Shown piece after piece: positions 19,471 to 60,047 of a stretch of 64,000 bases of DNA (within the stretch, counting starts at the first letter, position 1; every line of letters starts with the position of its first letter). The position numbers were made by a program, and so were the translations under genes. The notes below the pieces were generated by a model that worked only from the letters and a program-made list of their open reading frames with translations, searched no databases and was not told where the DNA came from. This DNA comes from Haloarchaeobius salinus (lineage in GTDB: Archaea > Halobacteriota > Halobacteria > Halobacteriales > Natrialbaceae), in assembly GCF_024464185.1 (NCBI RefSeq), contig NZ_JANHAU010000005.1, positions 62,001-126,000 of the forward strand, given 5' to 3'.

Positions 19471-22098
19471 CTAGGGAGCCGTCGTCTCCACCGCCTCGAC
19501 GCTCTCGGGGCGGATCCGCGAGAGGCGCATGGCATTCGCGGTCACCGCGGTCGTCATGCCGGCGTCACCGGCGAGGACGGCGAGCCAGATCGGCACGAGG
19601 CTGAACGGCACCCCGATTGCCAGCGCCGCCTTGACGCCGAGACTGGCCCAGATGTTCTGTCTGATGACGCCGTTGGCGTCGTGGGCCAGCTCGTAGAGGT
19701 ACGGCAGCTTGGCGAGGTCGTCGCCCATCAGGGCGATGTCGGCCGTCTCGAGCGCCGTGTCGGTACCGGCCGCACCCATCGCGACACCGACTGTCGCCGT
19801 CGCGAGCGCGGGTGCGTCGTTGACGCCGTCGCCGACCATCGCGACGCCGTCGTACTCGTCGTTCAACTCCTCGATGGCGGCGACCTTCTCGTCGGGCAGG
19901 AGTTCGGCGCGGAACTCGTCGACGCCGACCTGTTCGGCGATGGCACGGGCGGTCCGCTCGTTGTCACCGGTGAGCATGATGGTGTGCTCGACGCCGAGCT
20001 CGCGGAGCCGGGCGACCGTCCGTGCTGCCTCGGGCCGGACCTCGTCGGCGACCGCGATGACGCCCTCGAGTTCGTCCTCAGTGCCGACCAGCACGACGGT
20101 CTTGCCCTCCGACTGGAGCGCAGGGACGGTCTCGTGCAGCAGGTCGAGACAGTTGTTGCGGTCGCAGATGGTCCGGGCGGTCTGCGTGACGACGCCGCCG
20201 TCCGTCGTCGCGTGGACGTGCGAGAGGTCGAACCCGAGGTCCTCGAACAGGCCGGGTTTCCCCGCGTAGTGCGGCTGGCCGTCGAGGTCCGCACGGACGC
20301 CCTTGCCGGTGATGCTCTCGAAGTCGTCGATCTCGCGCTCACCGACGCCGGCGGTGGTCGCCTGCTCGACGATGGCCTCGCCGATGGGGTGTTCGCTGCG
20401 GGCCTCCAGGCCGCGAGCACAGCGGAGCACGTCCTCCTCGGTGTTGCCGTTCAGGGGGACGACGTCGGTCACGGTCAGCTCGCCCTTCGTGAGCGTGCCG
20501 GTCTTGTCGAAGGCGACAGCCTCGACCGCGCCCATCGCCTCCAGGTGGTTGCCTCCCTTGATGAGCACGCCGTTCTTCGCGGCGCTCGTGATGCCGGAGA
20601 CCACCGAGACCGGCGTGGAGATGACGAACGCGCACGGACAGGCGAGCACGAGCAGGGTCAGCCCGTAGACGACGGCGGTCGACCAGGTGGTGCCCAACAC
20701 GGACGGGCTCGCGAGGGTGACGACGACGGCGAACGCGACGACGACCGGCGTGTAGTACGACGAGAACCGCTCGACGAACTGCTCGCGCTCGGTCTTGTTC
20801 GACTGGGCGTCCTCCACCATCTGGACGATGCGCGAGAGGGTGTTGTCGCCCGCCTCCGAGGTCACCTCGACCTCCAGGTAGCCCCCTTCGTTGATGGTGC
20901 CCGCGTAGACCTCGTCGCCGCCCGTCTTGTCGACGGGGACGCTCTCGCCGGTGATGGGAGCCTGGTTGACGGCGCTCTCGCCGTCGACGACGACGCCGTC
21001 CATCGGTATCTTCTCGCCCGGCCGGACGACGACGACGTCGCCGACGGTCACCTCGTCCACGGACACCGCCTCCTCGTCGCCGTCGCGCTTCACCGTCGCC
21101 TCGTCCGGCGAGAGGTCCATTAGCTCCTCCAGCGAGTTCCGGGCACGGTCCATCGAGTACCGTTCGAGGAGCTCGGCGACGCTGAAGAGGAAGGCGAGCG
21201 TCGCTGCCTCGAAGTAGAGCGCCTCGCCGAAGACGACGCTGGCGACGAGCGCCCCGAGGATGGCGACGGACATCAGGAAGTCGATGTCGAGGTTTCGGTT
21301 GCGGGCGGAGTAGTAGCCGTTCCGGAGGATCTCCTGGCCACCGGTCGCGATGGCGACGAGGAACAGCACGTCCGCGACGAAGAGTTCGCTGCCCGCGACC
21401 GTCGCGACCAGCCCGTTCTGGGCGTGGAGGAAGAACTCGAAGAGGAGACCGAACACGAGGAAGCCGCCGCTGATCCAGGTCTTCACGGCGCGCGGACTCC
21501 GCCAGATGCTCTCGTCGGTCCCCGCATCCTCGGTCGCGCCCACGCTGCCGGTGCTGTCGGTGACCTCGTAGCCGGCGTTCTCGATGGCACCGACGAGGTC
21601 GGCCTCGGAGACGGTGCCGTCGTACGTGACCGACACCTTCCCGGTCGTCGGCCGTGGGTCGACGCTCAGCACGCCATCGACGGCGGTCAGCGCGTTCTCG
21701 ACCTTGCCTGCGCAGGAGGCACAGTCCATGTCGGGGACCGTGTAGGAGATCGTCGTCTCGGCGGGTCGGTCGACGGAGTAGCCCGCCTTCTCGATGCGAT
21801 CGACGACGGCCTCGGGCGAGGTCAGGTCCGGGTCGTAGACGACGGTCAGCATCCCGGTCGCGATCTGCGGGTCGATATCGACGATTCCGTCGAGCCTGTC
21901 GACGCTGTTCTCGACCTTGCCGGCACAGGACGGACAGTCCATGTCGGGCACCGAGAACTCGGCGACGGTGCCGCCATCAGCCTTCGAGACGGACCCCCCG
22001 TCAGGGCGATAATCGCGGCCGCTGCCGTCCCCACGGCAGGACGCGCCGTCTTGGGATACGTCGCACGAATCCGGCGTATCCCGGTCGGGTGAACTCAT
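19471..22098 (-). CDS. P1B-2-type Zn2+/Cd2+/Pb2+-exporting ATPase with two HMA domains
   Basis: The 875-residue product has two N-terminal HMA domains (MDCPSC with Cys 55/58 and MDCASC with Cys 126/129), eight membrane helices, the ion-site motif ACPCAFVIST in helix 6, the phosphorylation site [10 protein letters not shown] and the hinge [12 protein letters not shown]. The sequence after CPC and the last helices (NIWASLGVK..., WLAVLAGDAG) carry the conserved Lys and Asp of the ZntA/CadA subgroup rather than the copper subgroup, so the likely cargo is divalent Zn, Cd or Pb. A TATA-like TTTAATAA at 22121-22130 is 27 bases before the ATG at 22098, suggesting a leaderless transcript. Confidence 0.9.
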   Translation of the reverse strand: MSSPDRDTPDSCDVSQDGASCRGDGSGRDYRPDGGSVSKADGGTVAEFSVPDMDCPSCAGKVENSVDRLDGIVDIDPQIATGMLTVVYDPDLTSPEAVVDRIEKAGYSVDRPAETTISYTVPDMDCASCAGKVENALTAVDGVLSVDPRPTTGKVSVTYDGTVSEADLVGAIENAGYEVTDSTGSVGATEDAGTDESIWRSPRAVKTWISGGFLVFGLLFEFFLHAQNGLVATVAGSELFVADVLFLVAIATGGQEILRNGYYSARNRNLDIDFLMSVAILGALVASVVFGEALYFEAATLAFLFSVAELLERYSMDRARNSLEELMDLSPDEATVKRDGDEEAVSVDEVTVGDVVVVRPGEKIPMDGVVVDGESAVNQAPITGESVPVDKTGGDEVYAGTINEGGYLEVEVTSEAGDNTLSRIVQMVEDAQSNKTEREQFVERFSSYYTPVVVAFAVVVTLASPSVLGTTWSTAVVYGLTLLVLACPCAFVISTPVSVVSGITSAAKNGVLIKGGNHLEAMGAVEAVAFDKTGTLTKGELTVTDVVPLNGNTEEDVLRCARGLEARSEHPIGEAIVEQATTAGVGEREIDDFESITGKGVRADLDGQPHYAGKPGLFEDLGFDLSHVHATTDGGVVTQTARTICDRNNCLDLLHETVPALQSEGKTVVLVGTEDELEGVIAVADEVRPEAARTVARLRELGVEHTIMLTGDNERTARAIAEQVGVDEFRAELLPDEKVAAIEELNDEYDGVAMVGDGVNDAPALATATVGVAMGAAGTDTALETADIALMGDDLAKLPYLYELAHDANGVIRQNIWASLGVKAALAIGVPFSLVPIWLAVLAGDAGMTTAVTANAMRLSRIRPESVEAVETTAP

Positions 22099-22433: not shown

Positions 22434-25076
22434 ATGAGCACGCATCGAAGCCAGATCGACATCCAGGGGATGAGCTGTGCGAACTGCTCGCAGACCATCG
22501 CCGAACGGGTCGAGGGACTCGACGGTGTCTCGGAGGCGAACATCAACTACGCCACCGACGAGGGCACCGTCGAGTACGACCCGGGCGAGGTCTCGCTCGG
22601 CGATATCTTCGACGCCATCGAGGACGCGGGCTACAGCCCGGTCACCGAGTCCACGACCATCGCCATCACGGACATGTCCTGTGCGAACTGCTCGGAGACG
22701 GTGCAGGACGCACTGGAGTCGCTCCCGGGCGTCGTCCGCGCGGACGTGAACTACGCGACGGACGAGGCACAGGTCACGTTCAACCCGGCGGAGTCGTCGC
22801 TCGATACGTTCTACGAGGCGATCGAGAACGCCGGCTACTCACCCGTCAGGGAGGAGCCGTCGGACCAGGACGGGACCGCCGGTGGCGACGGTAGCGGCGA
22901 GAGCGCTCGCGACGCCGCACGGAACGCCGAAATACGGAAGCAGCGTCGGCTGACGCTGTTCGGTGCACTGCTGTCGGCACCGATGCTGTTCTTCCTCGCC
23001 GACAAGTTCCTGCTCGGCGGAACGTTCGTCCCGGAGACCGTCTTCGGGGTCACGTTCGGCTGGGTCGAGTTCGCCCTCGCCACGCCCGTCCAGCTCCTGC
23101 TCGGGTGGCCGTTCTACCGGAACTCGTACAACGCGCTCGTCAACAACCGTCGGGCCAACATGGACGTGCTCATCGCGCTCGGGTCGAGCACGGCCTACAT
23201 CTACTCGGTGAGCGTCCTGTTCGAGCTCGTCGCCGGCAGCATGTACTTCGACACCGCCGCGCTCATCCTGGTGTTCATCACGCTCGGGAACTACCTCGAG
23301 GCGCGCTCGAAGGGCCAGGCCGGCGAGGCGCTCCGGAAGCTGCTCGAGATGGAGGCCGAGACGGCGACCGTCGTCGACGAGGACGGCACCGAGCGCGAGG
23401 TCCCGCTCGAAGACGTGGCGGTCGGCGACCGGATGAAGGTCCGCCCCGGCGAGAAGATCCCGACGGACGGGGTCGTCATCGACGGCCAGAGTGCGGTCGA
23501 CGAGTCGATGGTCACCGGCGAGAGCGTCCCCGTCGAGAAGAGCGAGGGCGACGAGGTCGTCGGCTCGACCATCAACGAGAACGGCCTGCTCGTCGTCGAG
23601 GCCACGAAGGTCGGCAGCGACACCGCCCTCCAGCAGATCGTCCAGACGGTCAAGGAGGCCCAGTCCAGACAGCCCGACATCCAGAACCTCGCGGACCGCA
23701 TCTCGGCGTACTTCGTGCCCGCGGTCATCGTGAACGCCCTGTTCTGGGGCGTCGTCTGGTTCCTGTTCCCCGAGGCGCTGGCCGGCTTCGTCGACGCGCT
23801 CCCGCTCTGGGGGCTCGTCGCGGGCGGCCCCGGCGTCGCTGGCGGTGGCGTCTCCGTGTTCGAGTTCGCCATCATCGTCTTCGCCTCCGCGGTGCTCATC
23901 GCCTGCCCCTGCGCGCTCGGGCTGGCGACCCCGGCGGCGACGATGGTCGGGACCACCATCGGGGCGCAGCACGGCGTGCTGTTCAAGGGCGGTGACGTGC
24001 TCGAACGGGCGAAGGACGTGGACACCGTCGTCTTCGACAAGACGGGGACGCTCACGAAGGGCGAGATGGAGCTGACCGACGTCGTCGTCTTCGACGACGG
24101 GCAGGCCGTCGCGGACGGTGGTGAGACCGCCCCCGACGGTGGCGAGCTCGTGACCGAGGACCGCCTGACCGAGGCCGATGTGCTCCGACTCGCCGCGACG
24201 GCCGAGAGCGGCAGCGAACACCCGCTCGCCCAGGCCATCGTCGAGGGCGCTCGCGAGCGCGGTCTCGAGGTCGGCAGCCCCGACTCCTTCGAGAACGTCC
24301 CCGGCCACGGTGTCCGGGCCGAGTTCGACGGCGAGACGGTGTTCGTCGGGAACCGCAAGCTGCTCCGCGACAACGGCATCGACCCCGAACCGGCGGCCGA
24401 GACGATGGAGCGGCTCGAATCCGAGGGGAAGACGGCGATGCTCGTCGGCCGCACCCCGTCCAAGGGTGGCGACGGCGAGCTCGTCGGTGTCGTCGCCGAC
24501 GCGGACACCGTGAAGGAGAGCGCGAAGGACGCGGTGAGCGCACTGCAGGAGCGCGGCGTCGACGTGATGATGATCACGGGCGACAACGAGCGCACGGCCC
24601 GCGCGGTCGCCGAGCAGGTCGGCATCGACCCCGAGAACGTCCGCGCCGAGGTCCTCCCCGAGGACAAGTCCGACGCGGTCGAAGCGATCCAGTCCGAGGG
24701 CCGGCAGGCGATGATGGTCGGCGACGGCGTGAACGATGCGCCCGCGCTCGCCGTGGCCTACGTCGGCACGGCAATCGGCTCGGGGACGGACGTCGCCATC
24801 GAGGCCGCCGACGTGACGCTCATGCGGGACGACCCCCTGGACGTCGTGAAGGCCATCCGCATCTCCGACGCAACCCTGGCGAAGATCAAGCAGAACCTCG
24901 TCTGGGCGCTGGGCTACAACACCGCGATGATCCCGCTGGCCTCGCTCGGGCTGCTCCAGCCCGTGCTCGCGGCCGTCGCGATGGCCTTCTCCAGCGTCTC
25001 GGTGCTGACGAACAGCCTGCTGTTCCGCCGGTACGACCCCGACCACGACTACAGCCTGCTCGGGCTGCGTGACTGA
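22434..25076 (+). CDS. copA: P1B-1-type Cu(I)-exporting ATPase CopA
   Basis: The 880-residue product has two HMA domains (GMSCANC, Cys 15/18; DMSCANC, Cys 83/86), then the P-type core: the actuator motif [11 protein letters not shown], the copper-site CPC at residues 491-493 ([13 protein letters not shown]), the phosphorylated Asp 535 in [10 protein letters not shown], and [12 protein letters not shown]. Helices 7 and 8 have the copper signatures YNTAMIPLA and [12 protein letters not shown]. It exports Cu(I) or Ag(I) across the membrane using ATP. The shared motif upstream links it to the chaperone encoded 3 kb away. Confidence 0.96.
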
Positions 25077-34994: not shown

Positions 34995-35732
34995 ATGGAT
35001 AGCGGGAGCAATATTACACGGCGGCGCGCCCTCCTCGCCGGCGGTGCGACGGTCGCCTTCGGCGGCGGCGTCGCGTATCTCGCATCACGAACGGGGTCCT
35101 CGAGCGGGGAGTACACGCCGTCGACGTACCAGTCGCTCGACGAGTCGACGGGGTACGGGGTCGAACTCGCCGGGAGACCGGTCGTCGGCGAGCGCGACGC
35201 CCCCGTCGACGTGTACTACTGGACGGACTACCTCTGCCCGTTCTGCAAGGAGTTCGAGACGCAGACGCTGCCGAAGATCGGTCGGAACTACATCGAGCCC
35301 GGCGACGTGCGGCTGGTGTTCCTCTCGTACCCGAACATCGGGCAGTACTCGATGCCGTCGGCGCAGTGGGACCGGTGCGTCTGGCGGCTGAACGCCGAGA
35401 CCGAGCCGTCGGCGTACTGGCACTGGCACGGGGAGGCGTTCGAGGCGCAACAGAGCGGTGGCCACGACTGGGCCGACGAGTCCACCTTCGAGGACATCAC
35501 GGAGCGGACCGACGGCGTCGACGTCCCCGCAGTCGACGACTGTCGACAGAACAACCGCGAGGAGATTCGATCGAGCATCGAAGCGGACGTCGACCTGGCC
35601 CAGAACTCGGGGGTCCAGGGGACGCCGGGCTTCGTGCTCTACAACCGGGACGCCGATGCCGCCGGGAAGATAGTCGGGGCCCATCCCTACGAGAACTTCG
35701 CGGAGGCGCTCGACAGGGTGGTAGCGGCGTGA
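34995..35732 (+). CDS. DsbA-like thioredoxin-fold protein with Tat signal
   Basis: The 245-residue product has a Tat signal (TRRRALLAGG) without a lipobox cysteine, so it is exported and possibly anchored by its signal. The catalytic motif YLCPFCKEFE (Cys 81 and 84) and the cis-Pro loop GVQGTPGF identify a DsbA/thioredoxin_4 fold. Two further cysteines at about 128 and 183 may form a structural disulfide. It would make or shuffle disulfides in exported proteins. Its stop overlaps the start of the next gene (GTGA), and that gene overlaps the third one the same way, so the three are co-translated. Confidence 0.9.
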   Translation: MDSGSNITRRRALLAGGATVAFGGGVAYLASRTGSSSGEYTPSTYQSLDESTGYGVELAGRPVVGERDAPVDVYYWTDYLCPFCKEFETQTLPKIGRNYIEPGDVRLVFLSYPNIGQYSMPSAQWDRCVWRLNAETEPSAYWHWHGEAFEAQQSGGHDWADESTFEDITERTDGVDVPAVDDCRQNNREEIRSSIEADVDLAQNSGVQGTPGFVLYNRDADAAGKIVGAHPYENFAEALDRVVAA

Positions 35733-36274
35733 GTACCGCCGACAGCACGGGCCAGGGGCACCTCCACACCCTCCGTGACGCTCTGACCTATCCCCTCACC
35801 TCTGACCGCCGGCTGCTGGTCGCCGGTGTCGCCACGGCACTGACGTACCTCGTGCTCGTGTTGAGTACGTTCCCACAGTTCTCCGTCCAGATCGTCTCGA
35901 AGGACCCCGCGGACATCGGCTACGCCGTCTCGGCGCTCACCCGGGAGGTGTACCTCACCACCGGCTGGATAGGGCTCGCACTCGTCGTGCTGTACGCGCT
36001 CCTGACCGGGGTCGCGCTGACCCACACCGCCGCGCTGTACCGGCAGACACGGGCGAGCGGCGCATCGTCGCTGGCGACGGTGCTCCCGGGCGTCCTCGCT
36101 GCGGGCTGTGCGAGCTGCGGAGCCGGCGTCCTCGGGATGCTCGGGTTCGTGGGGGCGATGGCGGCGCTCCCGTTCCAGGGGAACCTCCTCCGGGCCGCCG
36201 GGATCCTGCTGCTCGTCGGATTCCTCGCCAGAACGGGCGACCCCCGGACCTGTGACGTAGGTGACCTCACGTGA
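35729..36274 (+). CDS. Membrane protein with intramembrane CxxC (operon with DsbA-like protein)
   Basis: The GTG at 35729 overlaps the upstream stop. The 181-residue product has four hydrophobic segments (about residues 29-50, 75-98, 115-140 and 148-168). Cys 127 and Cys 130 form a CxxC (AGCASCGAG) at the edge of the third helix. The C-terminus is short and polar. No known family is recognised. Coupling to a DsbA-like protein suggests that this CxxC either re-oxidises or reduces it. Confidence 0.75.
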   Translation: MSTADSTGQGHLHTLRDALTYPLTSDRRLLVAGVATALTYLVLVLSTFPQFSVQIVSKDPADIGYAVSALTREVYLTTGWIGLALVVLYALLTGVALTHTAALYRQTRASGASSLATVLPGVLAAGCASCGAGVLGMLGFVGAMAALPFQGNLLRAAGILLLVGFLARTGDPRTCDVGDLT

Positions 36275-36687
36275 ACGTCGCCGGTGACCGACGAGACGTC
36301 CTGCGAGGCGTCGCCGTCGGACTGGGCGTGTTCCTGGTGTTCGGGGCGGTGACGGGACTGATACCGAACCCGCTCTACGTCCGGATGGTCGCCAGGACGC
36401 CGGTGGACTACCTCTTCCTGTTCGCCACATCCGCGTTCGCGGCGGCGTTCGTCTACCAACGGTCGCTGGCGGCGGAACCAGTCGGTGACGGTGTCGCCGT
36501 CGGCGGCGTCATCTCCGGGGTCCTCGCGTTCGGGTGTCCAATCTGCAACGCGCTCCTGCTCGCGCTGTTCAGCAGCTCCGCGCTGCTGACGTACTTCGAC
36601 CCGCTCCGCCCGCTGCTGGGCGTCGCGAGCATCGGTCTCTTCGTCGGTCTCCTCTACTACCAGCGGGTCAACTGTCGGCGGTGTTGA
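36271..36687 (+). CDS. Membrane protein with CPIC and terminal CRRC pairs
   Basis: The GTG at 36271 overlaps the previous stop by the GTGA pattern. The 138-residue product has about four hydrophobic segments. A CPIC pair (Cys 89 and 92) lies in the third, and the protein ends NCRRC with a second pair (Cys 135 and 138). The spacing resembles a redox relay in which a membrane pair exchanges electrons with a cytoplasmic pair. No family is recognised. The stop is followed by a UspA gene 71 bases downstream. Confidence 0.75.
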   Translation: MNVAGDRRDVLRGVAVGLGVFLVFGAVTGLIPNPLYVRMVARTPVDYLFLFATSAFAAAFVYQRSLAAEPVGDGVAVGGVISGVLAFGCPICNALLLALFSSSALLTYFDPLRPLLGVASIGLFVGLLYYQRVNCRRC

Positions 36688-45739: not shown

Positions 45740-46121
45740 GAGTGGGTCGAGGCTCACAGGGTGATGCGTGAGATGTACCCAGGGGCACGAGGCAGAAAGA
45801 TACCCGGCTCCGCCACCACCTCCGCACCGTCGATCCCTGATGAAAGACTCGAAACGGTGGTGACGGGACTATTCAGCCGGTAAGTAGGTCCTCTGTATCG
45901 AACGCTCAGTGGATTCGAACCTGTCGACTCCTCTCGGACGATTCTTTGAATTTCTCCGGGGACTTGATATGTAGGACTGTAGGTTCCCGTGACTGGGTTG
46001 GACTCTGTTGACCGGGTCTGGTGCTCTCTGGGAGGGGTTATCCAGTCTGGCAGACACCCGTGTGGCTGAATGATCGGATGGGGTTTCCAACGAATGGCCG
46101 CAAGATGGGCTGTCTCCCTAA
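45740..46121. other. No supported gene
   Basis: About 380 bases between the regulator and the amphi-Trp gene. Open frames exist on both strands but have no recognisable features and unusual composition. It may be a remnant of the island's left edge. Confidence 0.5.
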
Positions 46122-46415
46122 TTATTCGTTCGCCGATACCGGTTCGCCGTCTTCTATCTGCCATTCGAGTTCGACTTCGAACTCGGCCTCGTCGTCGGTT
46201 ACCTCGTACTCGACTTCCAGTTCGAAGCGCTCTGGAACCGCCACCGTGAAGCCGTTTTCTCCTTCGATGTCGATCGTCCCGTTCTCGACACCATCAGCGA
46301 CTTCACGGAGTATTCCCGCACCGTCTGCCCGACTCATCACCCGCTCACCTTCACGTTCCGTCTCACCATCTGTCGATTCCGCTTCGGTCTCGGATTCTTG
46401 TTTATCGTTTCCCAT
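46122..46415 (-). CDS. Amphi-Trp domain-containing protein
   Basis: The 97-residue product begins with an acidic, Glu-rich segment of about 30 residues, then the amphi-Trp core: ILREVADGVENGTIDI and FELEVEYEVTDDEAEFEVELEW with the closing Trp. It is the same family as the frameshifted gene at 32881. The family has no known function. The gene sits at the left of the accessory island, separated from the regulator by an empty stretch. Confidence 0.85.
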   Translation of the reverse strand: MGNDKQESETEAESTDGETEREGERVMSRADGAGILREVADGVENGTIDIEGENGFTVAVPERFELEVEYEVTDDEAEFEVELEWQIEDGEPVSANE

Positions 46416-46542
46416 ACCGACTCTACGACGGCTGCCAATAAAATATCTCGGCCTCCATCAAAGTCAAAGACGCTGCCGCGATGCCCATTTGTGCGTTTGC
46501 CCAACACAGTCAGTGATACGGCTCTACCGAACCTTTCGAATG

Positions 46543-46614
46543 TTATCTGGTGGGATAGGGCGCTAAAACCTCACGCGTCAGCGCGGGGATACAGCGCCCT
46601 ATCCCACCAGATAA
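46543..46614. repeat. 72-base hairpin with perfect 22-base arms and an IS200/605-like loop
   Basis: The left arm (46543-46564, begins TTATCTGGTGGG) is the exact reverse complement of the right arm (46593-46614). The 28-base loop itself can fold: CCTCACGC and GCGCGGGG pair around GTCA with one mismatch, followed by AT. This resembles the right-end hairpin of haloarchaeal IS200/IS605-type elements, such as the one at 50505. It lies just before the start of the truncated endonuclease-repeat gene. Confidence 0.85.
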
Positions 46615-46632
46615 ACAAGAGGCGACCAGAAA

Positions 46633-47178
46633 GTGCCTGAAGCAGAGCGATTACGGGACAGCCTACAGAGACTCGAGCAGGAACTGGGGAGACCACCGGA
46701 GCTGGCAGACATCCTCGAGCGGGAGGACTGCCCGAATCTGCCTCCGTTCCAGGACGCGTTTGGCTCCTGGTACAGCGCGCTGTGGGCGGTCGGATTCACA
46801 CCCCAGAACCCACCGAGCTACTGGGAGGCTGCACTCGAGTCAGCAGGATATGCGACGCCAGTGAAACCAGTCCAGAAGTGGACTGAAGATCGGCTCTTGG
46901 ACGATCTGTGCGAACTGGCGGACGCACTCGGTCGAAAGCCGAAAGCGGTCGATGTCGCACATGAGTCGGAGATGGCTGCACCGCGAACGTACGACCACGT
47001 CTTCGGCTCCTGGAACACCGCGCTCGAGGAGGCTGGGTTTTCGGCGACGCCCGTTGGCAAGCTACGAAGATATTCGGACGAGGAATTGATCACGACCCTT
47101 CAGTCGATAGCTGCAGGACTGGACCGACAGCCCCGAACCGCTGATGTCGTGGTGCGCTACGCGCCGGAAGGCCGGTAG
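46633..47178 (+). CDS. Truncated protein of homing-endonuclease-associated repeats
   Basis: The GTG at 46633 opens a 181-residue frame containing three copies of a repeat of about 60-70 residues (LGRPPELADILER... FGSWYSALWAVGF, then LGRKPKAVDVAHE... FGSWNTALEEAGF, then LDRQPRTADV). This matches the homing-endonuclease-associated repeat often found with HNH nucleases in haloarchaea. The third copy breaks off and a short unrelated tail (VRYAPEGR) follows, so the original nuclease domain is missing. It may be non-functional. It starts 19 bases beyond the hairpin. Confidence 0.65.
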   Translation: MPEAERLRDSLQRLEQELGRPPELADILEREDCPNLPPFQDAFGSWYSALWAVGFTPQNPPSYWEAALESAGYATPVKPVQKWTEDRLLDDLCELADALGRKPKAVDVAHESEMAAPRTYDHVFGSWNTALEEAGFSATPVGKLRRYSDEELITTLQSIAAGLDRQPRTADVVVRYAPEGR

Positions 47179-47208
47179 ACGTTCGCGTCCTTTCGCCGAA
47201 CCATGCAG

Positions 47209-47844
47209 TCAGTCGTCCAGCGGCTCCTGTAACGCCTCCTCGATCGGCTCGTCGCCGGCCGCGAGTTCGAACGTCTCGCCGAACGTGCTCTCGGCCTCGA
47301 GCGCCGAGACCAGCGTCCGGGAGACGTCCTCACGCGGGATATCGACGTCGTCGCCGTCGAGATGGACGCCCGTTCTGATTCGTCCGGTTCCGTCCTCGTC
47401 CGTCAGCGGTCCGGGTCGGACGATCGTGTACGTCAGGTCGCTCTCCCGTAGGTACTCGTCGGCCTCGGCCTTTGCCTGGAGGTACTCTCGCAGCTCTTCC
47501 GGACCACTCTCGGGCCGATCGGCGTTAATCGAGCTGAGCATCACGAACCGTTTGATGCCTTCGGATTCGGCCTCGTCGACGAGATTGTTCGCGCCGTCGC
47601 GGTCGACGCCCCACACGTCCTCGCCGCCCGAACCCGCGGCGAAAATGATCGCGTCGATTCCCTCGACGGCGTGCGAGACGTCCCCGGTCAGATCCGCGAC
47701 GACGGGTTCGGCACCGAGGTCCTCGATGTCCGACGCTTGCGACTCCGCGCGAACCATCCCCCGAACATCGTGGTCGCTCTCGGCGAGGATGCGGGTCGCG
47801 TGTTGGCCGACCTGTCCGTGCGAACCGGCAACGAGTACGTTCAT
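47209..47844 (-). CDS. NAD(P)-binding SDR/NmrA-like protein
   Basis: The 211-residue product has the Rossmann motif VLVAGSHGQVGQHATRIL, then AIIFAAGSGG, MLSSINADR, and TYTIVRPGPLTDE, the pattern of the atypical short-chain dehydrogenase group without the Tyr-Lys catalytic pair (NAD(P)H-binding, NmrA or YhfK-like). It may sense the redox state or act as a small oxidoreductase. It is convergent with the preceding gene and does not look degraded. Confidence 0.88.
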   Translation of the reverse strand: MNVLVAGSHGQVGQHATRILAESDHDVRGMVRAESQASDIEDLGAEPVVADLTGDVSHAVEGIDAIIFAAGSGGEDVWGVDRDGANNLVDEAESEGIKRFVMLSSINADRPESGPEELREYLQAKAEADEYLRESDLTYTIVRPGPLTDEDGTGRIRTGVHLDGDDVDIPREDVSRTLVSALEAESTFGETFELAAGDEPIEEALQEPLDD

Positions 47845-48007
47845 ACGCTAGATATCGGCTGGCATGGTGAAGAGGGTAGCGGGGATCGGCGGCCCCAGGA
47901 GCGACGGAATAGAGTAAACGAGCCCACGTTGTGGTCGGAGCCCTTCGCGCGGGGAGAGCTGTGGGATGGTCTCACGAGCCGTGACGGCGCGCGGTCCCGA
48001 CGCTCGA

Positions 48008-49915
<1,908 letters not shown>

Positions 49916-50254
49916 ATGCAAACCGTTATCCATCTCGTGTCAGGAGACGAGAACGAGCAGAAAACAGCACTGGCTATCGCCAAAAACCTCCTGGACGACG
50001 AGACTGGCAGTATAGATGACGTTGCGGTTGTCGTTCAGGCGGATGGAATGAAGGCGATTAAAACTGGCCAAGAGAGCGAGGAGCAAGTTCGGGCCCTCTT
50101 GGACGACGGTGTCTCATTCAAGGCCTGTAGCAACACACTCGAGATGATGGGTCTCGACGAATCCGACCTCGTTGAGGGCGTTAAGACCGTCCCAGAGGGT
50201 GCTGTGGAAGTGACGCGATTGGAGACGGAAGGATACGCCTATATGCGGCCGTAG
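49916..50254 (+). CDS. DsrE/DsrF-like sulfur-relay family protein
   Basis: The 112-residue product has the DsrE-like fold signature: start TVIHLVSGDENEQKTALAIAKNLL, middle VAVVVQADGMKAI, and a conserved single cysteine in FKACSNTLEMMGLDESDL that fits the DsrE/F/TusD active position. Family members relay sulfur or bind small molecules; in haloarchaea the role is unknown. It stands alone in an AT-rich part of the island. Confidence 0.88.
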   Translation: MQTVIHLVSGDENEQKTALAIAKNLLDDETGSIDDVAVVVQADGMKAIKTGQESEEQVRALLDDGVSFKACSNTLEMMGLDESDLVEGVKTVPEGAVEVTRLETEGYAYMRP

Positions 50255-50642
50255 TGACCTCACGAAACTCTCAGTTGATCTGGAACGGTTTGCAGTCTAG
50301 TTCTTGCGGATGGCTCGGTCAAATACTGGTGGAGTAAACAGAGTCACTGTGCGATATCCATTCTTTGTATTTCGCGTCGTTTCTGAGTGTATTCTAGTAG
50401 CAGGCTCAAACGATTCTGAACACAGGGGGCGAATTGAGCGGATGGAACTCATACTTGTACGGAAATAATCTTGTCGAGTTCTGTTATACAGTGCGAGGAG
50501 AATACCCGTGCCTTTAGGCGCGGGATGAATCCGACAACCCATTCCACAATCCATCGTCAATAGCACCGCCGGGTATTCCACTGCCACGAAACACTAAAAT
50601 TTACAATCGAAGATAGCGTAATAGATTATACATCGTTTCAGA
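50255..50642. other. AT-rich stretch with an orphan IS200/605-like end
   Basis: No protein-coding gene is supported. The stretch holds the hairpin at 50505-50524 and ends at the tnpB remnant at 50643. It appears to be decayed mobile DNA. Confidence 0.5.
50505..50524 (+). mobile_element. Right-end hairpin of an IS200/IS605-type (IS1341-like) element
   Basis: CCCGTGCC and GGCGCGGG pair perfectly (with one G-U) around TTTA, followed by ATGAATCCGAC. In haloarchaea this hairpin marks the 3' end of tnpB elements and of their omega-type guide RNA scaffolds. No tnpB gene lies upstream, so this end is an orphan or left by a decayed copy. Confidence 0.6.
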
Positions 50643-50941
50643 ATGCTGGAAGTCCACCGTACCCTCCGTACGAAAATCCTCAACCACAGTCAGGCAGAAG
50701 AATCGCTTGACCGGCACGGGTGGAGTGCCAGCAAACTCTGGAACGTCGCCAACTACCACTCCCCGAAGTGTGGGAGGAAACCGGTGAGATTCCCGACCAC
50801 GGCGAGCCCAATGCACCGTTTGGTGGACTCAAACAGTCTGGCCTTGGCCGCTACAACGGCGAATGGGTGCGGGACGAACTCCTTGAGGAAAAGTGGATCT
50901 CGGTCCAGCACGAGGAACGTGAGTACGGTCTGCTTGACTGA
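50643..50941 (+). pseudogene. tnpB N-terminal remnant fused to an aldehyde dehydrogenase C-terminus
   Basis: The first part (50643-50762) encodes LEVHRTLRTKILNHSQAEES and WSASKLWNVANYHS, the N-terminus of a haloarchaeal TnpB. After a frame shift the reading frame (about 50765-50806) continues VWEETGEIPDHGE as in TnpB. At about 50807 it changes to PNAPFGGLKQSGLGRYNGEW and KWISVQHEEREYGLLD, which is the C-terminal end of an aldehyde dehydrogenase. This mosaic is two broken genes joined at one point. No active product is expected. Confidence 0.8.
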
Positions 50942-51100
50942 GACGGCGTTCTTCACCCGGAGCTGTTCCGTCGTTCAAACGACTGCTGAATGCAACCCCT
51001 GTATCTCGCACGGCGTTTTTGATCGCTACCGATTAGATCAGATGGTTGGTCGATACGTGAATCGGTGAAGTTTTGCAGTCAAAACGGGGATCCGATAACG

Positions 51101-51295
51101 ATGTCCGTCCAGAAAGCCCTCCTCTCCGAACTGTTTGCAATCCTGCTCGTACTATACGGAGGATTCACGGTGATTGCTCCTTACCAAACTGGCCATCCGT
51201 CGTTTATCCACGCAGGATTCTACCTCGGACTCTTCGGATTCCTCTATGGTCTCGTGGGTACCGAGATTTTGCGAACATCCCGGAACGATACATAA
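51101..51295 (+). CDS. Small membrane protein
   Basis: ATG at 51101 gives 64 residues with two hydrophobic helices (about 12-30 and 38-56) and a charged tail (LRTSRNDT). No family is recognised. The frame extends up to 51065 by a GTG. AT-rich composition matches the surrounding island. Confidence 0.5.
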   Translation: MSVQKALLSELFAILLVLYGGFTVIAPYQTGHPSFIHAGFYLGLFGFLYGLVGTEILRTSRNDT

Positions 51296-51340
51296 GCATA
51301 GCTACTTATCGGCTTACTCAGCTCGACGGCCATCGAACAA

Positions 51341-51531
51341 TGAGTGACTACGTCCACTGTTCCGCTGGTGCATCTCGCAGTCCAGCAGTCGCAGCAACTG
51401 CACTTGCAATACACTCAAATTTAGAGCTCGAAGAAGCATTCAAACGAATTTCGAACCGACGAGATGCGGTTGAGCCGCATTACGCGCTACTCCAGCAAGC
51501 TGCGAGAGTGTCTTCTGACACATCAATATAA
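51341..51531 (+). pseudogene. C-terminal piece of a dual-specificity phosphatase
   Basis: The 63 codons encode VHCSAGASRSPAVAATAL, the active-site loop HCxxGxSRS of dual-specificity or tyrosine phosphatases, followed by a short helical tail (ELEEAFKRISNRRDAVEPHY). The N-terminal half of the fold, including the general-acid loop, is missing, so it is a truncated copy. The ATG chosen is the first in frame and may not be the original. Confidence 0.65.
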
Positions 51532-51612
51532 CTCTGATTGTACTCCTCATCAGATCCTCCAGGCGGACAAGATTCAACATCCACCCGAGGAACTGGGAAA
51601 CTAGGTTGGAAG

Positions 51613-52050
51613 ATGACACGGACGAACGACCCTTACGACCTGCAACGGTTCGTCGACGCCCAAGACCCCGTCATCGACGAGGTTAAACAAGAACTCCGAA
51701 CGGGACGCAAGCGTAGTCACTGGATGTGGTACATCTTCCCCCAGATGGAAGGACTCGGCAAGAGTGAGATGGCTCAGCGGTACGCGATTTCGTCACGAAG
51801 CGAAGCCAAAGCCTATCTAGAACATCCCATACTTGCGCCGAGATTGCGCGAATGTACCGGGCTCGTGAACGAGACCAACGATCGATCGGCGAACGAGATT
51901 TTTGGCAGACCGGATGACCTGAAGTTCCGCTCCTCGATGACACTGTTCGAAGTCGTTGCAGATGACCCAGCACTGTTCAGAGACGCACTAGAGCAGTTCT
52001 TCGATGGCGAACCCGACCCGAAGACGCTTGAGTTGCTGGCGGATGGCTGA
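51613..52050 (+). CDS. DUF1810-family protein
   Basis: The 145-residue product matches DUF1810: start DPYDLQRFVDAQDPVIDEVKQELRTGRKRSHWMWYIFPQ, middle SRSEAKAYLEHPILAPRLREC, and end FRDALEQFFDGEPDPKTLELL. The family is widespread in bacteria and has no established function. It appears complete. Confidence 0.85.
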   Translation: MTRTNDPYDLQRFVDAQDPVIDEVKQELRTGRKRSHWMWYIFPQMEGLGKSEMAQRYAISSRSEAKAYLEHPILAPRLRECTGLVNETNDRSANEIFGRPDDLKFRSSMTLFEVVADDPALFRDALEQFFDGEPDPKTLELLADG

Positions 52051-52215
52051 TTGGCGAGACGGCGTGTTCGAGCTTGCTGGATGGGATGCTCGCTCCACAG
52101 GATGATGTAGGAATACCGCGACAGCGAGAGCGATGATTCTTGCGGTGGAAGAAACATCGGCAGACGGTGTACGTTCGCCCCAGAATTTATTGATGTAGTG
52201 ATACGTGAGGGGTGT

Positions 52216-53178
52216 ATGGGTCGTTCTCTTCAGTTTTCGGTCCCGCATAGCTCTGTAGACTGGAATTCGACGGGCGACCCTCCGAAGGACCCGTACTTAG
52301 ATGCGATTGCCGCCGTTGACGCGGATGTCGAACTGTTCTGTCCACAGCCATACGCTCATCATATCGTTCCTGTCAAGCGGACGCTCGACGCTTACAATCT
52401 TGACATAGGGACAGTCCACGGGCCGCACCTCCAGCGATTGCTAGAAGACGACGACGGTGGCGTGAACTCGCTGTTCACCAAACTGCGACACCTCCATCTG
52501 GCGTCTGTCATCGATAAAACCCCGGAGCACCGCTTAGAGCCTGCTGTATCCACCCATCACGCGCCACGTTTCTGGAGGGGCGACGATGTAGACGTCGACG
52601 CTGCCAGACGCCAGTTCCTCGAACGGCTCGCGGACGCAGTCTCGAAAGCCGAACCAGACGGTAGCCGCGACCACCTCGACGCGGACGTCTACGACGGTTC
52701 ACGGATTACTGCCACCGTCGCCTTGGAGAATGTCGCCCCTCGTGGCCCCCACCAGTACCTCCTCGTCACCCCTAGCGACGTCGAAGCCCTTGTTTCAACT
52801 GGTGAAAGTCTGGGGATCGACGACGCGTTCGCGTTCACCCTGGATGTTGGTCACTCGACCGAGCCTGTGGCACTGCTGGAAGCGATGCACGATGTCCGGA
52901 ACGTTCATCTGCACAGTACAGTCGCACTCGACTCGAGCGAAGCACGCCGAATCCACGACCGGTATGAGTTAGCGGAGACGGCCGAAGTCGGGTCGGAGGA
53001 CCGCGATGGCGTTGCCCACCACCTTCCGCCGCACGTCGGCGACCTTGATCTCACTCGAATCTTGGACGCACTGGACGACACCGGCTACGACGGCCCACTC
53101 ACGGTCGAGCTTGACTCGATATACCACCGACCGGAGGTTGTCACCGAGGTTTCCGACGCACTCGACCGCTACCAGTGA
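52216..53178 (+). CDS. Xylose-isomerase-like TIM-barrel protein (sugar phosphate isomerase/epimerase family)
   Basis: The 320-residue product has the AP-endonuclease-2/xylose-isomerase barrel pattern: GTVHGPHLQRLLE, a central TVALENVAPRGPH, FTLDVGHSTEP, NVHLHST, and PLTVELDSI near the C-terminus. Conserved Glu, Asp and His at strand ends fit one divalent metal site. ATG at 52216 is preferred over the GTG at 52198 that opens the frame. Substrate unknown; sugar epimerisation, isomerisation or DNA repair are all within the family. Confidence 0.8.
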   Translation: MGRSLQFSVPHSSVDWNSTGDPPKDPYLDAIAAVDADVELFCPQPYAHHIVPVKRTLDAYNLDIGTVHGPHLQRLLEDDDGGVNSLFTKLRHLHLASVIDKTPEHRLEPAVSTHHAPRFWRGDDVDVDAARRQFLERLADAVSKAEPDGSRDHLDADVYDGSRITATVALENVAPRGPHQYLLVTPSDVEALVSTGESLGIDDAFAFTLDVGHSTEPVALLEAMHDVRNVHLHSTVALDSSEARRIHDRYELAETAEVGSEDRDGVAHHLPPHVGDLDLTRILDALDDTGYDGPLTVELDSIYHRPEVVTEVSDALDRYQ

Positions 53179-53445
53179 CCGTTTGGGGAGCCAGTTACTG
53201 CTCGTGTCCTCAACGGACGTCACCAGCCAATCAGAATTGGAGCTGTCTGCCCAGAGATGTACAGGATCAAAGTCACCCACTCGAGTCTGGAACGACGGTA
53301 TCTGCTCGACGGCGATTCATATGACGTCCCCTAGTTTCGAGGACTGACTGCTCATACAGTCAATTTGGGCGCGACGGGTGTGGCAATTGCGGATCGCAAC
53401 TGCGATGGGGAAGTCTTTCACAGCGGATGACCCACGGGACATTTT

Positions 53446-54834
53446 TCAGTGGTCGTGATCGTGACTTGCTATCTGCGGGCTTTGATCAGCAAATTCCGTT
53501 GGTTCTTCTTCGAACGTGCGCTTACAGGTCTTCGAGCAAAAATAGTACGTCGTCCCATCGTGGGACGCACTCGGGCCCTCATCGTCGGTTCGCATCCCGC
53601 ACACCGGATCTCGATACTGACCTGGTGCGCCGAGTCCCCGCCGGTAGACATACAGAAGGAACCCGGAGAGTGCAAAGGCGATAATATTGAGGTAGAACGT
53701 GTAGTTGAGCTCGAAGTACGTCTGCTCGGTTGCCGTCTCGCCACCCGCGAGGTCCGGGACGATGCCGAGGGCGTCGAACAGCAGCTCCATGAGGAAGCCG
53801 GTGAACGCCATCGTCACGAAGAAGACACCGAGGATGTACAGCATGATCTTCCAGCCGTAGTACTTCCGGTAGACGTTCAACACGGGGATCGTGATGAGGT
53901 CAGCGTAGACGAACGAGATGATCCCGGCGAAGCTGACGCCACCGCCCCACAGCGCGACGGCGAACGGGACGTTCCCCATACTGCCGACGAAACTGAGCAC
54001 GGCGATGATGACGCCCATGACGGCGTTCTCGGCAGTCACCAGCAGGCCGTCGCCCTGAATGAACAGCGTGTTCCACACCCACTGCGGGACGAAGACGATG
54101 ACGAATCCAGAAATAAGGAAGCCGGCAACGATGTCCTTCCAGATCATCGACCACTCCTTGCGGTACTGATTCCCGACCTTGTACCAGCCACCCCACGACA
54201 GCAACTCGTCACGCCACCCGCCGCTACTCGACGTCTCCTGGCGGTAGGTCTCCATACAGCCCTCCGAGCAGAATTTGAGCGTCTCACCGCCGTCGGTCGT
54301 GAGCGTGTACTCGTCTTTTCCCTCCATCCCGCAGGTGGGATCTTCCGTGACGCCCGATGCGTGATCACGTTCGTTGAGCGTTTCTCGGACTTCGTTAAAC
54401 AGGTTCTCGGGGAGCGTCAGGTGAACGATGACCGCCATGACGGCGATGAGGATGAGGCCGCCGAGCAACTCTGCGAGGAGGAATTCCCACCCGAGCAGGA
54501 TCAGGATCATCAATCCGAGCTCGACGATGAGGTTCGTCGACGCGAACATGAACGCGAGGAAGTTCACCGTGTGCGCCCCCTTCTTGAATAGACCCTTCCC
54601 GATGGCGACGGCCCCAAAACTACAGCCACTACTCGCTGCTCCGAACACGGTCGCCTTGGTAAGTCCAGTTAGATCGCCCTCACCCAGCACCTGTGCCATC
54701 CGTTCCTTCGAGACGTAGACTTGGACGAGGCTCGTGATCGTGAGGCCCATGATAATCGCCCACGCCGCCGTCCAGAGAAACCCGACACCGATTCGGAGGG
54801 ATTCAAGAACTCCGTCGATTATCGTCGCCTGCAT
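53446..54834 (-). CDS. DUF318/ArsP-type permease with two YHS domains
   Basis: The 462-residue protein has eight or more membrane helices in two halves. Between them is a YHS (TRASH-like) domain (EDPTCGMEGKDEYTL... FCSEGCMETY), and a second YHS domain ends the protein (DPVCGMRTDDEG... YYFCSKTCKRTFEEEP) followed by a His tail (HDHDH). The membrane part shows AASSGCSFGAVAIGKGLFKKGA, the conserved first-half motif of DUF318 permeases. Such proteins export organoarsenicals or thiol-reactive metals. The two metal-binding YHS domains likely deliver or sense the metal. The ATG at 54834 begins MQATIIDGVLES. Confidence 0.88.
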   Translation of the reverse strand: MQATIIDGVLESLRIGVGFLWTAAWAIIMGLTITSLVQVYVSKERMAQVLGEGDLTGLTKATVFGAASSGCSFGAVAIGKGLFKKGAHTVNFLAFMFASTNLIVELGLMILILLGWEFLLAELLGGLILIAVMAVIVHLTLPENLFNEVRETLNERDHASGVTEDPTCGMEGKDEYTLTTDGGETLKFCSEGCMETYRQETSSSGGWRDELLSWGGWYKVGNQYRKEWSMIWKDIVAGFLISGFVIVFVPQWVWNTLFIQGDGLLVTAENAVMGVIIAVLSFVGSMGNVPFAVALWGGGVSFAGIISFVYADLITIPVLNVYRKYYGWKIMLYILGVFFVTMAFTGFLMELLFDALGIVPDLAGGETATEQTYFELNYTFYLNIIAFALSGFLLYVYRRGLGAPGQYRDPVCGMRTDDEGPSASHDGTTYYFCSKTCKRTFEEEPTEFADQSPQIASHDHDH

Positions 54835-55160
54835 AGGTGTATCTTTGTAGGAATCATCTATTGCGGTTTTGCTTAGAATATACTGACTATGAAGGTGCTG
54901 ATACAATGGAATCGTAACCCATGGCCAAAAATAATCTATCAGAACGGGGAAGGGCCTCGTAAATCACCACAGGAGCCGTGGAATCCGACTTTAGTTTCAT
55001 AAGGAAAATCGGATTAAATCACGCCGACGTATCAGAGGCTAATGGGACCAGTAGAGACCGATGATATCCCAAATGAGGAGGATACCACCTGGAGGAACAG
55101 TGTTCGCCGGCCTGCTCGTTTGTCTAGTACAGTACCTGGGGCATCCATTCCTAATTCACG
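54835..55160. other. No supported gene
   Basis: About 325 AT-rich bases between the permease and the amidohydrolase. Minus-strand AGTATATTC around 54880 may belong to the permease promoter. Nothing else is recognised. Confidence 0.4.
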
Positions 55161-56627
55161 ATGACTGCCGATCTGGCAATCCACGATGCACTCGTTCTCA
55201 CAGCCGACGAGCGGAACCGGCTGTACGAGCGTGGCACAGTATTCATCACCGATGGCTGTATCGAAGAAGTCCGACCGTCACGTGCAGGAGACGGAGAATT
55301 AGAAGCGTCCACCGTTATCGACGGGAACGGGAAACTGTTGATGCCTGGGTTGGTGAACGCCCACACGCACTTGGAGATGACACCGCTCATCGGTGCGTTT
55401 AGCGAACTCGATTTGACGGAGATGCTTGGGAGCGGGACGGCCTTGTTCAACAGACTAGGGAACGGCGAATTCGAGTACCTCGTCGAGGCGGGCGTCGAGC
55501 TCGCAGCGCTCAATTTCCTCCTGGGCGGTGTCACGACCGTGAACTCGATGGACGCACGGCCTGCCGCAGGTGCAGAGGCGTTCGGGGAAGCAGGGCTCCG
55601 CGGATTTTTCGGCCCGGCGATCTCGGACCTCTTCTGGGACCAACCAGTCGATCAGCAGTTCTCCCGTGCTCGCGAGTTCGTCGAAACGTACCACGACACG
55701 TACGACGGCCGAATCAGGGCGACGATCTGCCCGCACGACGACTGGTCGTGTACCCGGCAGTTGTGGGAACGGACCGCGTCCCTCGCCGCAGAGTATCCGG
55801 ACCTGCTCGTCCACACGCACTTGCTCGAACTCGAGGAGAGTAACACGATGGCACGAGCGAACGGCGGCGAGGACTCGGTGGGACTGCTCGACGACGTTGG
55901 ACTCCTGGACGACCGACTGGTCGCTGCTCACTTTCGCCTCGCCGACGAAGAGGACATCCAGCGAACCGCCGAGGCGGACGCAGCCGTTGCGCACTGCCCG
56001 TCCGTCTTCTGTTACTGGAATCCGGATGGGGAGACACAATGGACACCTGTTCCCGAGCTTCGAGCCGCAGGCGTCGACGTCGGAGTAGGGATTGACGACC
56101 ACTACTGGCACGACTCATACAGCATGTTCGGAGAAGCGCGGCAAGCTCGGCTGGCGGCAAATCTCAAGCGTTCAGCCGGGCAGTTCGACTCGATGGAACT
56201 GATACGAATGCTCACTATCGAGGGTGCACGCGCGCTGGGGGTGGGTGACGAGATCGGCAGTATCGAAGCGGGGAAGCGCGCGGATATTATCCTCCTCGAC
56301 GTCGACAAGCCGAAGTTCACGCCACGGACCAATATTCCTGCACAGGTCGTGAACAACGCAGCACCTGCCGATGTAGAGACAGTAATCGTTGACGGCGACA
56401 TCGTCCTTCGGAATGGCGTGCCCGAGACGATGAATTCGGACGACGTGCGACAGCGGGTAAATCAGTCTGTCGAGCGCTTCGAGGACGAGACGGGCTGGGA
56501 GTTACACGTTGGTGGTAGCGAACCGCCGACCAGCATCGAGACAGTACGGGACCTCCCAAAGCGTGGCCCTGCGAGACTCCTGACTCGCCTCGCAATTCAA
56601 TCGGCGCGTGATCGGTTCCCCTTCTAA
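55161..56627 (+). CDS. Amidohydrolase-superfamily protein (deaminase/chlorohydrolase-like)
   Basis: The 488-residue product has the metal-site motif NAHTHLEM, LVHTHLLELEES, AAHFRLADEEDI, the acid motif VGIDDHYWHDSY, and a composite beta-sandwich (VLTADERNR at the N-terminus, AGKRADIILLD at the C-terminus). This is the cytosine-deaminase/SAH-deaminase group, like the gene at 16354 but clearly divergent. Deamination or hydrolysis of a heterocyclic compound is likely. It stands alone, with no regulator nearby. Confidence 0.88.
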   Translation: MTADLAIHDALVLTADERNRLYERGTVFITDGCIEEVRPSRAGDGELEASTVIDGNGKLLMPGLVNAHTHLEMTPLIGAFSELDLTEMLGSGTALFNRLGNGEFEYLVEAGVELAALNFLLGGVTTVNSMDARPAAGAEAFGEAGLRGFFGPAISDLFWDQPVDQQFSRAREFVETYHDTYDGRIRATICPHDDWSCTRQLWERTASLAAEYPDLLVHTHLLELEESNTMARANGGEDSVGLLDDVGLLDDRLVAAHFRLADEEDIQRTAEADAAVAHCPSVFCYWNPDGETQWTPVPELRAAGVDVGVGIDDHYWHDSYSMFGEARQARLAANLKRSAGQFDSMELIRMLTIEGARALGVGDEIGSIEAGKRADIILLDVDKPKFTPRTNIPAQVVNNAAPADVETVIVDGDIVLRNGVPETMNSDDVRQRVNQSVERFEDETGWELHVGGSEPPTSIETVRDLPKRGPARLLTRLAIQSARDRFPF

Positions 56628-56985
56628 GCGGGTGGCAAAGAACAGTCCACACACCCTTCAGCGCGATATACGGAGCAGCCGGTCTTGCAGTACACTCTTC
56701 AAGGATTCTCCGGCTATGTACAGCTATGCCTAGTAACCGCAACTCCAGGGGGGGTTCCACCCCCGTTGGTTGACTGGCTGGAATTGTTTCTTTTTGAGGA
56801 TTTCACCATAGCAGCCTGACCTCCCGCTCGGTACTGCCTGATCCAGGCGGAGGCGCTCGACTAGTTGTGCTGTAGACGCGCCCTGTATCTCGACCGATGT
56901 CCAAACACCTCGTTGAGCTGGAAGAACTCACAGTGGTCAATTCGCAGCCTTCAGTGACCGGTGGTTTCGTGTCGTGTCGTATCTG
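56628..56985. other. No supported gene; one GC-rich hairpin
   Basis: About 360 bases. A run of seven Gs (56748-56754) followed shortly by CCCCC (56760-56764) can form a short stem and may be a terminator-like structure 120 bases after the amidohydrolase gene. A 28-codon frame at 56897 has no recognised features. Confidence 0.35.
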
Positions 56986-57330
56986 ATGAGCCGCATCATC
57001 TCGTACGTGACTGGTGCGACCGACGACGACGGATTCAGCGGGCTCGCCGGGGGCTACGGCGGCCGCCGCGACCTCCTCGTCTTCGACGCGTTCGACCCGG
57101 ACACGCCGGAGCCGACCTTTCGATTCCGGCGAACCGACACGGACGAGACCGTCGAAGTGACCTACCACGTCGGCGACGTTCCCGACGGCGGGTCCGCAAT
57201 CGGGAATCTTCAGGGAATCCTGGATGGGTCTGCGAGCGAGGAGCAGCGGGCGGCTTTCGCGGAGGCCTGGCACCATCGCGTGCAGGTCGTCCTTGACGAC
57301 GACTCGTTGTTCACCGTCGAGACTGCGTGA
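56986..57330 (+). CDS. Hypothetical protein
   Basis: The 114-residue product (start MSRIISYVTGATDDDG) is acidic with a mixed beta/alpha pattern and a Gly-rich N-terminus (GLAGGYGGRRDLLVFDAF). Codon use fits haloarchaea and it converges on the P1B-4 ATPase gene. A GTG at 56974 would add four residues. Function unknown. Confidence 0.6.
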   Translation: MSRIISYVTGATDDDGFSGLAGGYGGRRDLLVFDAFDPDTPEPTFRFRRTDTDETVEVTYHVGDVPDGGSAIGNLQGILDGSASEEQRAAFAEAWHHRVQVVLDDDSLFTVETA

Positions 57331-57344
57331 CTGGGTTCGACATC

Positions 57345-59558: not shown

Positions 59559-59618
59559 GTTTTAGGTGGACCCACGAGCATTCCTCCGATCCTGATCTCG
59601 GTACACGAGTCGAGGATT

Positions 59619-60047
59619 TCATCCAATGATCGTTACCGGGATCTGTGCTCGGCGAGTGACTGTCTCGGCGACACTCCCGAGGAACGTCCGGTCTAGGCCT
59701 GACCGGCCGTGGCTACCCATAACGATCTGGTCGATGCCGTTGTCGGCAGCGTAGTCGAGAATCTCACGCGCCGGTTTCCCGACTTCAGTGACAGTATGGA
59801 GCACAATATCGTGTTCCGCCGCGAGATCCGTCGCAGTCGTGTGAATCTCGGTCGCCCGCTCCTGGGCGGTATCGTACCAGTCCTCTGCGACTGGCAAGCC
59901 ACCGGCCTCTACGTCGATTACCGAGTCGATCGGGTTGATGACGTAAATTGTGGTGATCGTGGCGTTCGGAAAGGTCTCGAGTGCGTACGTGAGTGCACGC
60001 TCGGCAAGTGGGGAGCCGTCCAAGGCGACGAGAACGTTGTCAGGCAT
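59619..60047 (-). CDS. Universal stress protein (UspA family)
   Basis: A 142-residue Usp domain: start MPDNVLVALDGSPLAERAL and ATP-binding motif MGSHGRSGLDRTFLGSVAETVTRRAQIPVTII, fully canonical. It lies 60 bases upstream of the P1B-4 gene on the same strand, so it may be transcribed with it. It is the third Usp gene of the window. Confidence 0.93.
   Translation of the reverse strand: MPDNVLVALDGSPLAERALTYALETFPNATITTIYVINPIDSVIDVEAGGLPVAEDWYDTAQERATEIHTTATDLAAEHDIVLHTVTEVGKPAREILDYAADNGIDQIVMGSHGRSGLDRTFLGSVAETVTRRAQIPVTIIG

Follow-up and report, generated by a model that had tools for sequence, protein, structure and literature searches.

VKOR is a small helical-bundle thiol enzyme and a partner of DsbA-like proteins. 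CcdA/DsbD proteins have six transmembrane segments (TMs), with a single cysteine in TM1 and in TM4, and act as reductive trans-membrane relays through which cytosolic thioredoxin supplies electrons to exported thioredoxin-fold proteins. MerT, a mercury transporter, works by thiol hand-over. In this study, a haloarchaeal locus encoding a DsbA-like protein (P1) and two small membrane proteins (M1 and M2) was compared with these systems. The window, that is, the whole 64-kb stretch of DNA analysed, covers positions 62001-126000 of a contig from a genome with a completeness of 99.98%. The genes lie in the order P1, M1, M2 on the plus strand at 34995-36687 and are joined by consecutive 4-bp GTGA overlaps:

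34995..35732, plus strand: P1, DsbA/BdbD-like thioredoxin-fold oxidoreductase, 245 aa, with a Tat-type signal (Pfam, BdbD profile)
35235..35246, plus strand: CPFC codons of P1 (C81, C84), read from the sequence and invariant in 51 relatives
35376..35378, plus strand: C128 codon of P1, covarying with C183 (35541-35543)
35729..35732, plus strand: GTGA stop/start overlap of P1 and M1, read from the sequence
35729..36274, plus strand: M1, 181 aa, four TMs, CASC in TM3, C175 after TM4
36107..36118, plus strand: CASC codons of M1 (C127, C130), invariant in 58/58 relatives
36251..36253, plus strand: C175 codon of M1, predicted cytosolic from the charge distribution, invariant in 58/58 relatives
36271..36274, plus strand: GTGA stop/start overlap of M1 and M2, read from the sequence
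36271..36687, plus strand: M2, 138 aa, four TMs, CPIC in TM3, terminal CRRC
36535..36546, plus strand: CPIC codons of M2 (C89 in 61/61 relatives, C92 in 60/61)
36673..36684, plus strand: terminal CRRC codons of M2 (C135, C138), predicted cytosolic, pair present in 51/61 relatives

The first-pass annotation had described three genes joined in this way, the first a Tat-exported CPFC protein and the others unrecognised membrane proteins with these cysteine pairs. The open reading frames, domain matches and cysteines bear this description out; it had overlooked C175 of M1. P1 is an ordinary DsbA-family member. It matches Pfam Thioredoxin_4 (3.7e-18) and DSBA (4.4e-10), with 66.7 bits vs a cut-off of 23.2, has a Tat-type N-terminus (ITRRRALLAG, with RR at residues 10-11), and carries its CPFC active site at residues 81-84 and a cis-Pro loop, GTPGF, in which TPGF and P211 are invariant among relatives. 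The nearest solved structure is BdbD of Bacillus (3eu3; profile E 3e-36), and ScsC-type proteins rank lower among the solved relatives (about 1e-17). C128 and C183 are both present in 43 relatives and both absent from 7, with one alone in a single relative; a structural disulfide between them is probable from this pattern.

The same 64 kb also contains a metal-homeostasis neighbourhood, with three heavy-metal P-type ATPases, a cysteine-rich DUF326 protein and an ArsP-like permease that carries YHS/TRASH domains:

19471-22098 (-), 22434-25076 (+), 57345-59558 (-), 60793-61143 (-), 53446-54834 (-): metal-homeostasis genes of the window

The G+C content is 52-63% at 46000-62000 of the window and 66-71% elsewhere, and this low-G+C stretch is probably an acquired island.

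Pairing of the membrane proteins with the DsbA subfamily

The host genome has no match to DsbB (PF02600) or DsbD/CcdA (PF02683) at E<=0.1 and none to VKOR (PF07884), so that the absence noted earlier for the vicinity of the locus is true of the whole genome. M1 and M2 are thus the only candidate partners found. Neither has a Pfam or NCBIfam match over threshold, hhalign of either against CcdA profiles gave a probability below 3%, and literature searches found no description of them. Such membership tests on sequence place neither protein in DsbB, VKOR, DsbD/CcdA or MerT.

The P1 subfamily (cut-off E<=1e-30) and M1 (counted at full strength) were sought in 294 genomes of Halobacteria. They share the same 79 genomes, with no genome containing only one of them, and 83 of the 88 P1 copies lie <=5.5 kb from an M1. 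The dsbA and M1 genes are either co-directional (dsbA-M1) or divergent, and this varying order indicates that inheritance of a single operon does not by itself explain the link. Across these genomes this DsbA subfamily has M1 as its obligate companion, and the partnership is well supported. M2 occurs in 67 of the 79 genomes and in 21 others; near M1 lie 58 of its 95 haloarchaeal copies, and 37 do not. M2 is not exclusive to DsbA and usually follows M1. The earlier proposal that the two membrane proteins could serve the DsbA-like protein is partly supported: M1 is paired with it in 79/79 genomes, the cysteines are conserved and the host has no classical partner, but those 37 copies of M2 do not fit. 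VKOR matches were found in 55/294 genomes of Halobacteria; an anti-correlation with M1 was sought and not found (VKOR in 18/79 M1 genomes vs 36/215, p = 0.24).

A second, divergent DsbA and M1-like pair was also observed in haloarchaea, with about 21-31% identity to P1 and M1. It is present in four of five fetched loci (L070, L071, L073 and L074, at about 2.4-4.8 kb within each, and not L072).

Cysteines and topology of M1 and M2

In the alignment of 58 relatives, residues G126, C127, A128, C130, G131 and C175 of M1 are invariant. The cysteine conservation on which the initial proposal depended was thus found throughout M1 and in nearly every TM3 motif of M2, with the terminal pair of M2 more variable; this conservation is no chance pattern. 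A thiol-partner gene (DsbA, TrxA, SCO, TlpA or CcdA) is present at the locus for 45/51 M2 relatives with the terminal CxxC vs 0/10 without it, a comparison in which the loss counts as one event because all M2 lacking the pair form a single clade (support 100/99):

L051, L052, L063, L064, L050, L053, L054, L041, L042, L048: M2 clade without the terminal CxxC, CPxCN kept

For M2, the idea of a constant thioredoxin-fold partner fails in this clade. Its members retain CPxC although no thiol partner is encoded at their loci, so this TM3 motif may serve an older function, perhaps one related to metal or sulfur.

Counts of lysine and arginine place both termini and the loop between TM2 and TM3 on the cytosolic side (N-in/C-in), with a charge bias that is strongest in M1 and the bacterial family described below and weaker in haloarchaeal M2. 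From this distribution, the terminal cysteines would be cytosolic and the CxxC would lie in the cytosolic half of TM3. No conserved cysteine was found in the loops of M1 or M2 assigned to the outside, and hence there would be no extracytoplasmic pair besides the CxxC. AF2 models (pLDDT 73 and 77) interrupt TM3 at the CxxC in both proteins, with the helix break at residues 125-133 of M1 and 88-93 of M2 and a pLDDT of 52-60 at the motif; the topology is thus a prediction from charges and low-confidence models. Foldseek searches of the PDB with both models returned no match (best E above 1), and nothing was found with the M1 sequence against PDB chains. The M2 sequence gave a match to complex I (0.019) in another region, which is at chance level. 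Scattered Pfam matches of the two families (DUF5676 at 4.7e-5, DUF4190, FAM165) were taken as hydrophobic noise.

Gene neighbourhoods, rival cargoes and remote homology to MerT

The neighbourhoods of 40 haloarchaeal case loci were compared with 40 displaced control stretches, mostly on the same contigs. A TrxA gene lies no more than 7 kb away in 22 of the 40 case loci vs 3/40 controls (p = 7e-6), as read for gene sets picked after annotated loci had been viewed and for loci that share ancestry and are not independent. These trxA genes are on the same strand in 21/22 loci and within 650 bp in 13; in Halobacterium hubeiense, for example, the genes run consecutively as trxA-x-dsbA-M1-M2. The window itself contains no TrxA gene. 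CcdA adjoins M1 in 7 haloarchaeal loci, and other loci carry CcdA, SCO, TlpA, Ccm or multicopper oxidase genes. An apparent CcmA signal reflected merely ABC ATPases (6/40 in controls) and was set aside, and a CcdA-M2 fusion in L149 proved only apparent, a frame artefact. Two further neighbours were observed. The first, a winged-helix regulator with a small membrane protein, accompanies M2/M1 in 13/40 haloarchaeal loci vs 1/40 and 0/40 controls; the second is an unannotated soluble protein:

L035:2387-3027, L075:5702-6342, L128:9394-10025: winged-helix regulator and small membrane protein
L127:6752-7150: the unannotated soluble protein, encoded between trxA and dsbA, similar in L008, L014, L018, L020, L021 and L075

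The first-pass annotation had suggested that the two membrane proteins recycle the DsbA-like protein. One form of this would be a DsbB-like oxidase in which M1/M2 re-oxidise P1 and pass the electrons to quinone, in keeping with the closeness of P1 to the oxidase BdbD and with a genome lacking DsbB and VKOR. However, the extracytoplasmic loops lack cysteines, the additional cysteines are predicted to be cytosolic, neither protein matches DsbB or VKOR, VKOR does not avoid M1 genomes, and the neighbouring TrxA and CcdA genes point to transfer in the reductive direction. Cysteines near the cytosolic face, the missing extracytoplasmic pair and these neighbours together favour a CcdA/DsbD-like relay; the oxidase is less likely, and we regard it as the least probable of the readings considered here.

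Genes for sulfane-sulfur metabolism (TusA, DsrE, MBL-fold, SQR, rhodanese, TauE or YeeE) are found near 27/40 case loci vs 2/40 controls (p = 4e-9), and DUF302 near 19/40 vs 0/40. M1/M2 may be a conduit in which persulfide sulfur moves from thiol to thiol through the membrane; on the extracytoplasmic side P1 would accept or donate this sulfur, and in the cytosol TrxA/TusA would be the partners. Psr-like molybdoenzyme clusters adjoin some loci, YeeE, TusA and DsrE are among the neighbours, and a DsbA-CcdA-DsrE module has been reported on Arthrobacter plasmids (PMC6305408), all of which would suit sulfur transfer. Sulfur genes, however, often cluster with redox genes generally; the window has none of these genes apart from one weak DsrE-like match, 13 kb off, and the actinobacterial loci are mixed. 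We consider sulfur as the cargo unlikely.

On plasmids of actinobacteria, tblastn detected relatives of M2 (35% and E 5e-7 for Rubrobacter), and a scan of Actinomycetota genomes revealed at least 566. CPxCN is present in all 51 aligned relatives and a C-terminal cysteine in 50. An M2-like gene directly adjoins DsbA-CcdA in 24/80 actinobacterial loci; any DsbA, CcdA or TlpA gene is present in 44/80, and a copper ATPase, CsoR, CopZ or DUF305 gene in 26/80. In hhalign, the bacterial family matches M1 with a probability of 95.7%, M2 with 99.9% and MerT with 91% (E 1.1e-6), aligning TM3-TM4 and the C-terminal cysteine with TM1-TM2 and Cys75 of MerT. The MerT match persists after cysteines are changed to serine, and with reversed profiles or unrelated membrane profiles the probability does not reach 3%. 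The MerT query was confirmed by annotated merT genes that it matches at 100%, and three more MerT sequences were retrieved. Used alone, the haloarchaeal M2 profile aligns in that register too, with a probability of only 7% (E 0.005), and the MerT link thus depends mainly on the bacterial members. The Pfam MerT model (PF02411) gave nothing over its cut-off in 98 genomes, and the best M2 member has E 0.005. By profile comparison, M1, M2 and the actinobacterial proteins are one superfamily, remotely homologous to MerT. The initial proposal had counted clear membership in an unrelated transporter family against itself; this remote homology goes part of that way, although thiol hand-over is also how MerT works.

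Some neighbouring observations concern the same theme. Sub-threshold matches to the MerT model (L105-L116, E down to 7e-6) occur in other haloarchaeal genomes. Small SLCCL-motif proteins, several with further terminal cysteines, adjoin or lie near M2 and have a MerF-like layout without profile support; MerF-like small CC proteins gave no alignment with M1 or M2.

L005:666-965, L013:2520-2867, L027:777-1094, L037:4066-4314, L044:3135-3386: SLCCL-motif proteins

The homology to MerT raises the possibility that M1/M2 are MerT-like and that P1, acting as a MerP substitute, supplies them with Cu(I) or Hg(II) for delivery to cytosolic thiols. The MerT match, the copper genes of the actinobacterial loci and the metal P-type ATPases of the window are in keeping with this, as is the tight binding of Cu(I) reported for a ScsC protein (PMC8900818). 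On the other hand, copper genes in haloarchaea are present near just 9/40 case loci vs 2/40 controls (p = 0.05), the motif is CxxC where MerT has a vicinal CC, thioredoxin-fold partners are much nearer and more constant than metal genes, and merP/merA appear in none of the gene lists of the annotated loci examined. A soft-metal cargo is more doubtful still than sulfur.

The proposed relay and comparison with known systems

We tentatively favour, at close to an even chance, a CcdA-like trans-membrane thiol relay of P1, M1 and M2 built on a MerT-like core. P1 would be exported by Tat and act extracytoplasmically as a thiol oxidoreductase of the DsbA/ScsC kind. M1, together with M2, would be four-TM members of a single superfamily and share a MerT-like core of TM3 and TM4, in which TM3 is interrupted at the CxxC, possibly reachable from either side; further cysteines would lie on the C-terminal tail in the cytosol. 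These C-terminal cysteines would be reduced by thioredoxin or a different thiol of the cytosol, the electrons would move to the intramembrane CxxC, the CxxC would reduce the CPFC of P1, and P1 would act on extracytoplasmic disulfides or persulfides. The sequences, their conservation, the gene pairing and the homology are observed; the direction of transfer and the cargo, be it electrons, persulfide sulfur or a soft metal, are inferred.

Several findings count against the relay. MerT, the sole recognised relative of M1/M2, moves a metal ion; orphan M2 copies retain the TM3 CPxC with no thiol partner nearby; the nearest solved relative of P1 is an oxidase; copper genes are near, both in the window and in the actinobacterial loci; and the window lacks TrxA, while the loss of the terminal CxxC from M2 is one event. 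A broader proposal, which we hold with somewhat more reserve, is that a MerT-like core became a dedicated thiol conduit, for electrons or persulfide, serving DsbA-type proteins as a fourth kind of DsbA partner in haloarchaea and Actinomycetota. Perhaps M1 and M2 form a two-part channel in such a MerT-like conduit. The relay offers a testable answer to how exported thiol enzymes are kept in redox order in archaea without DsbB, VKOR and DsbD. One MerT-linked superfamily now takes in hundreds of membrane proteins of actinobacteria and haloarchaea that lacked annotation, and a partner enzyme is predicted for many of its members.

The locus resembles BdbD/BdbC (DsbA/DsbB) of Bacillus subtilis in its BdbD-related P1 with CPxC and an adjoining gene for a small four-TM partner, but M1/M2 are related to MerT and not homologous to BdbC/DsbB, and they have no shuttle cysteines on the extracytoplasmic side. 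VKOR differs from M1/M2 in sequence, with no match, and in cysteine layout, and some genomes have both. With MerT, the M2 family shares a TM and C-terminal cysteine core aligned by profile; however, M1/M2 have two extra N-terminal TMs, CxxC instead of the vicinal CC in the first TM of MerT, M2 scores below the Pfam cut-off, and the neighbour is DsbA rather than MerP/MerA. As in CcdA/DsbD systems with ScsC or TlpA, there is a TrxA neighbour, an exported thioredoxin-fold partner and membrane cysteines at helix breaks, and CcdA genes often adjoin loci of the M1/M2 type; M1/M2 differ in having no DsbD_TM match and only four TMs, with a single CxxC in TM3.
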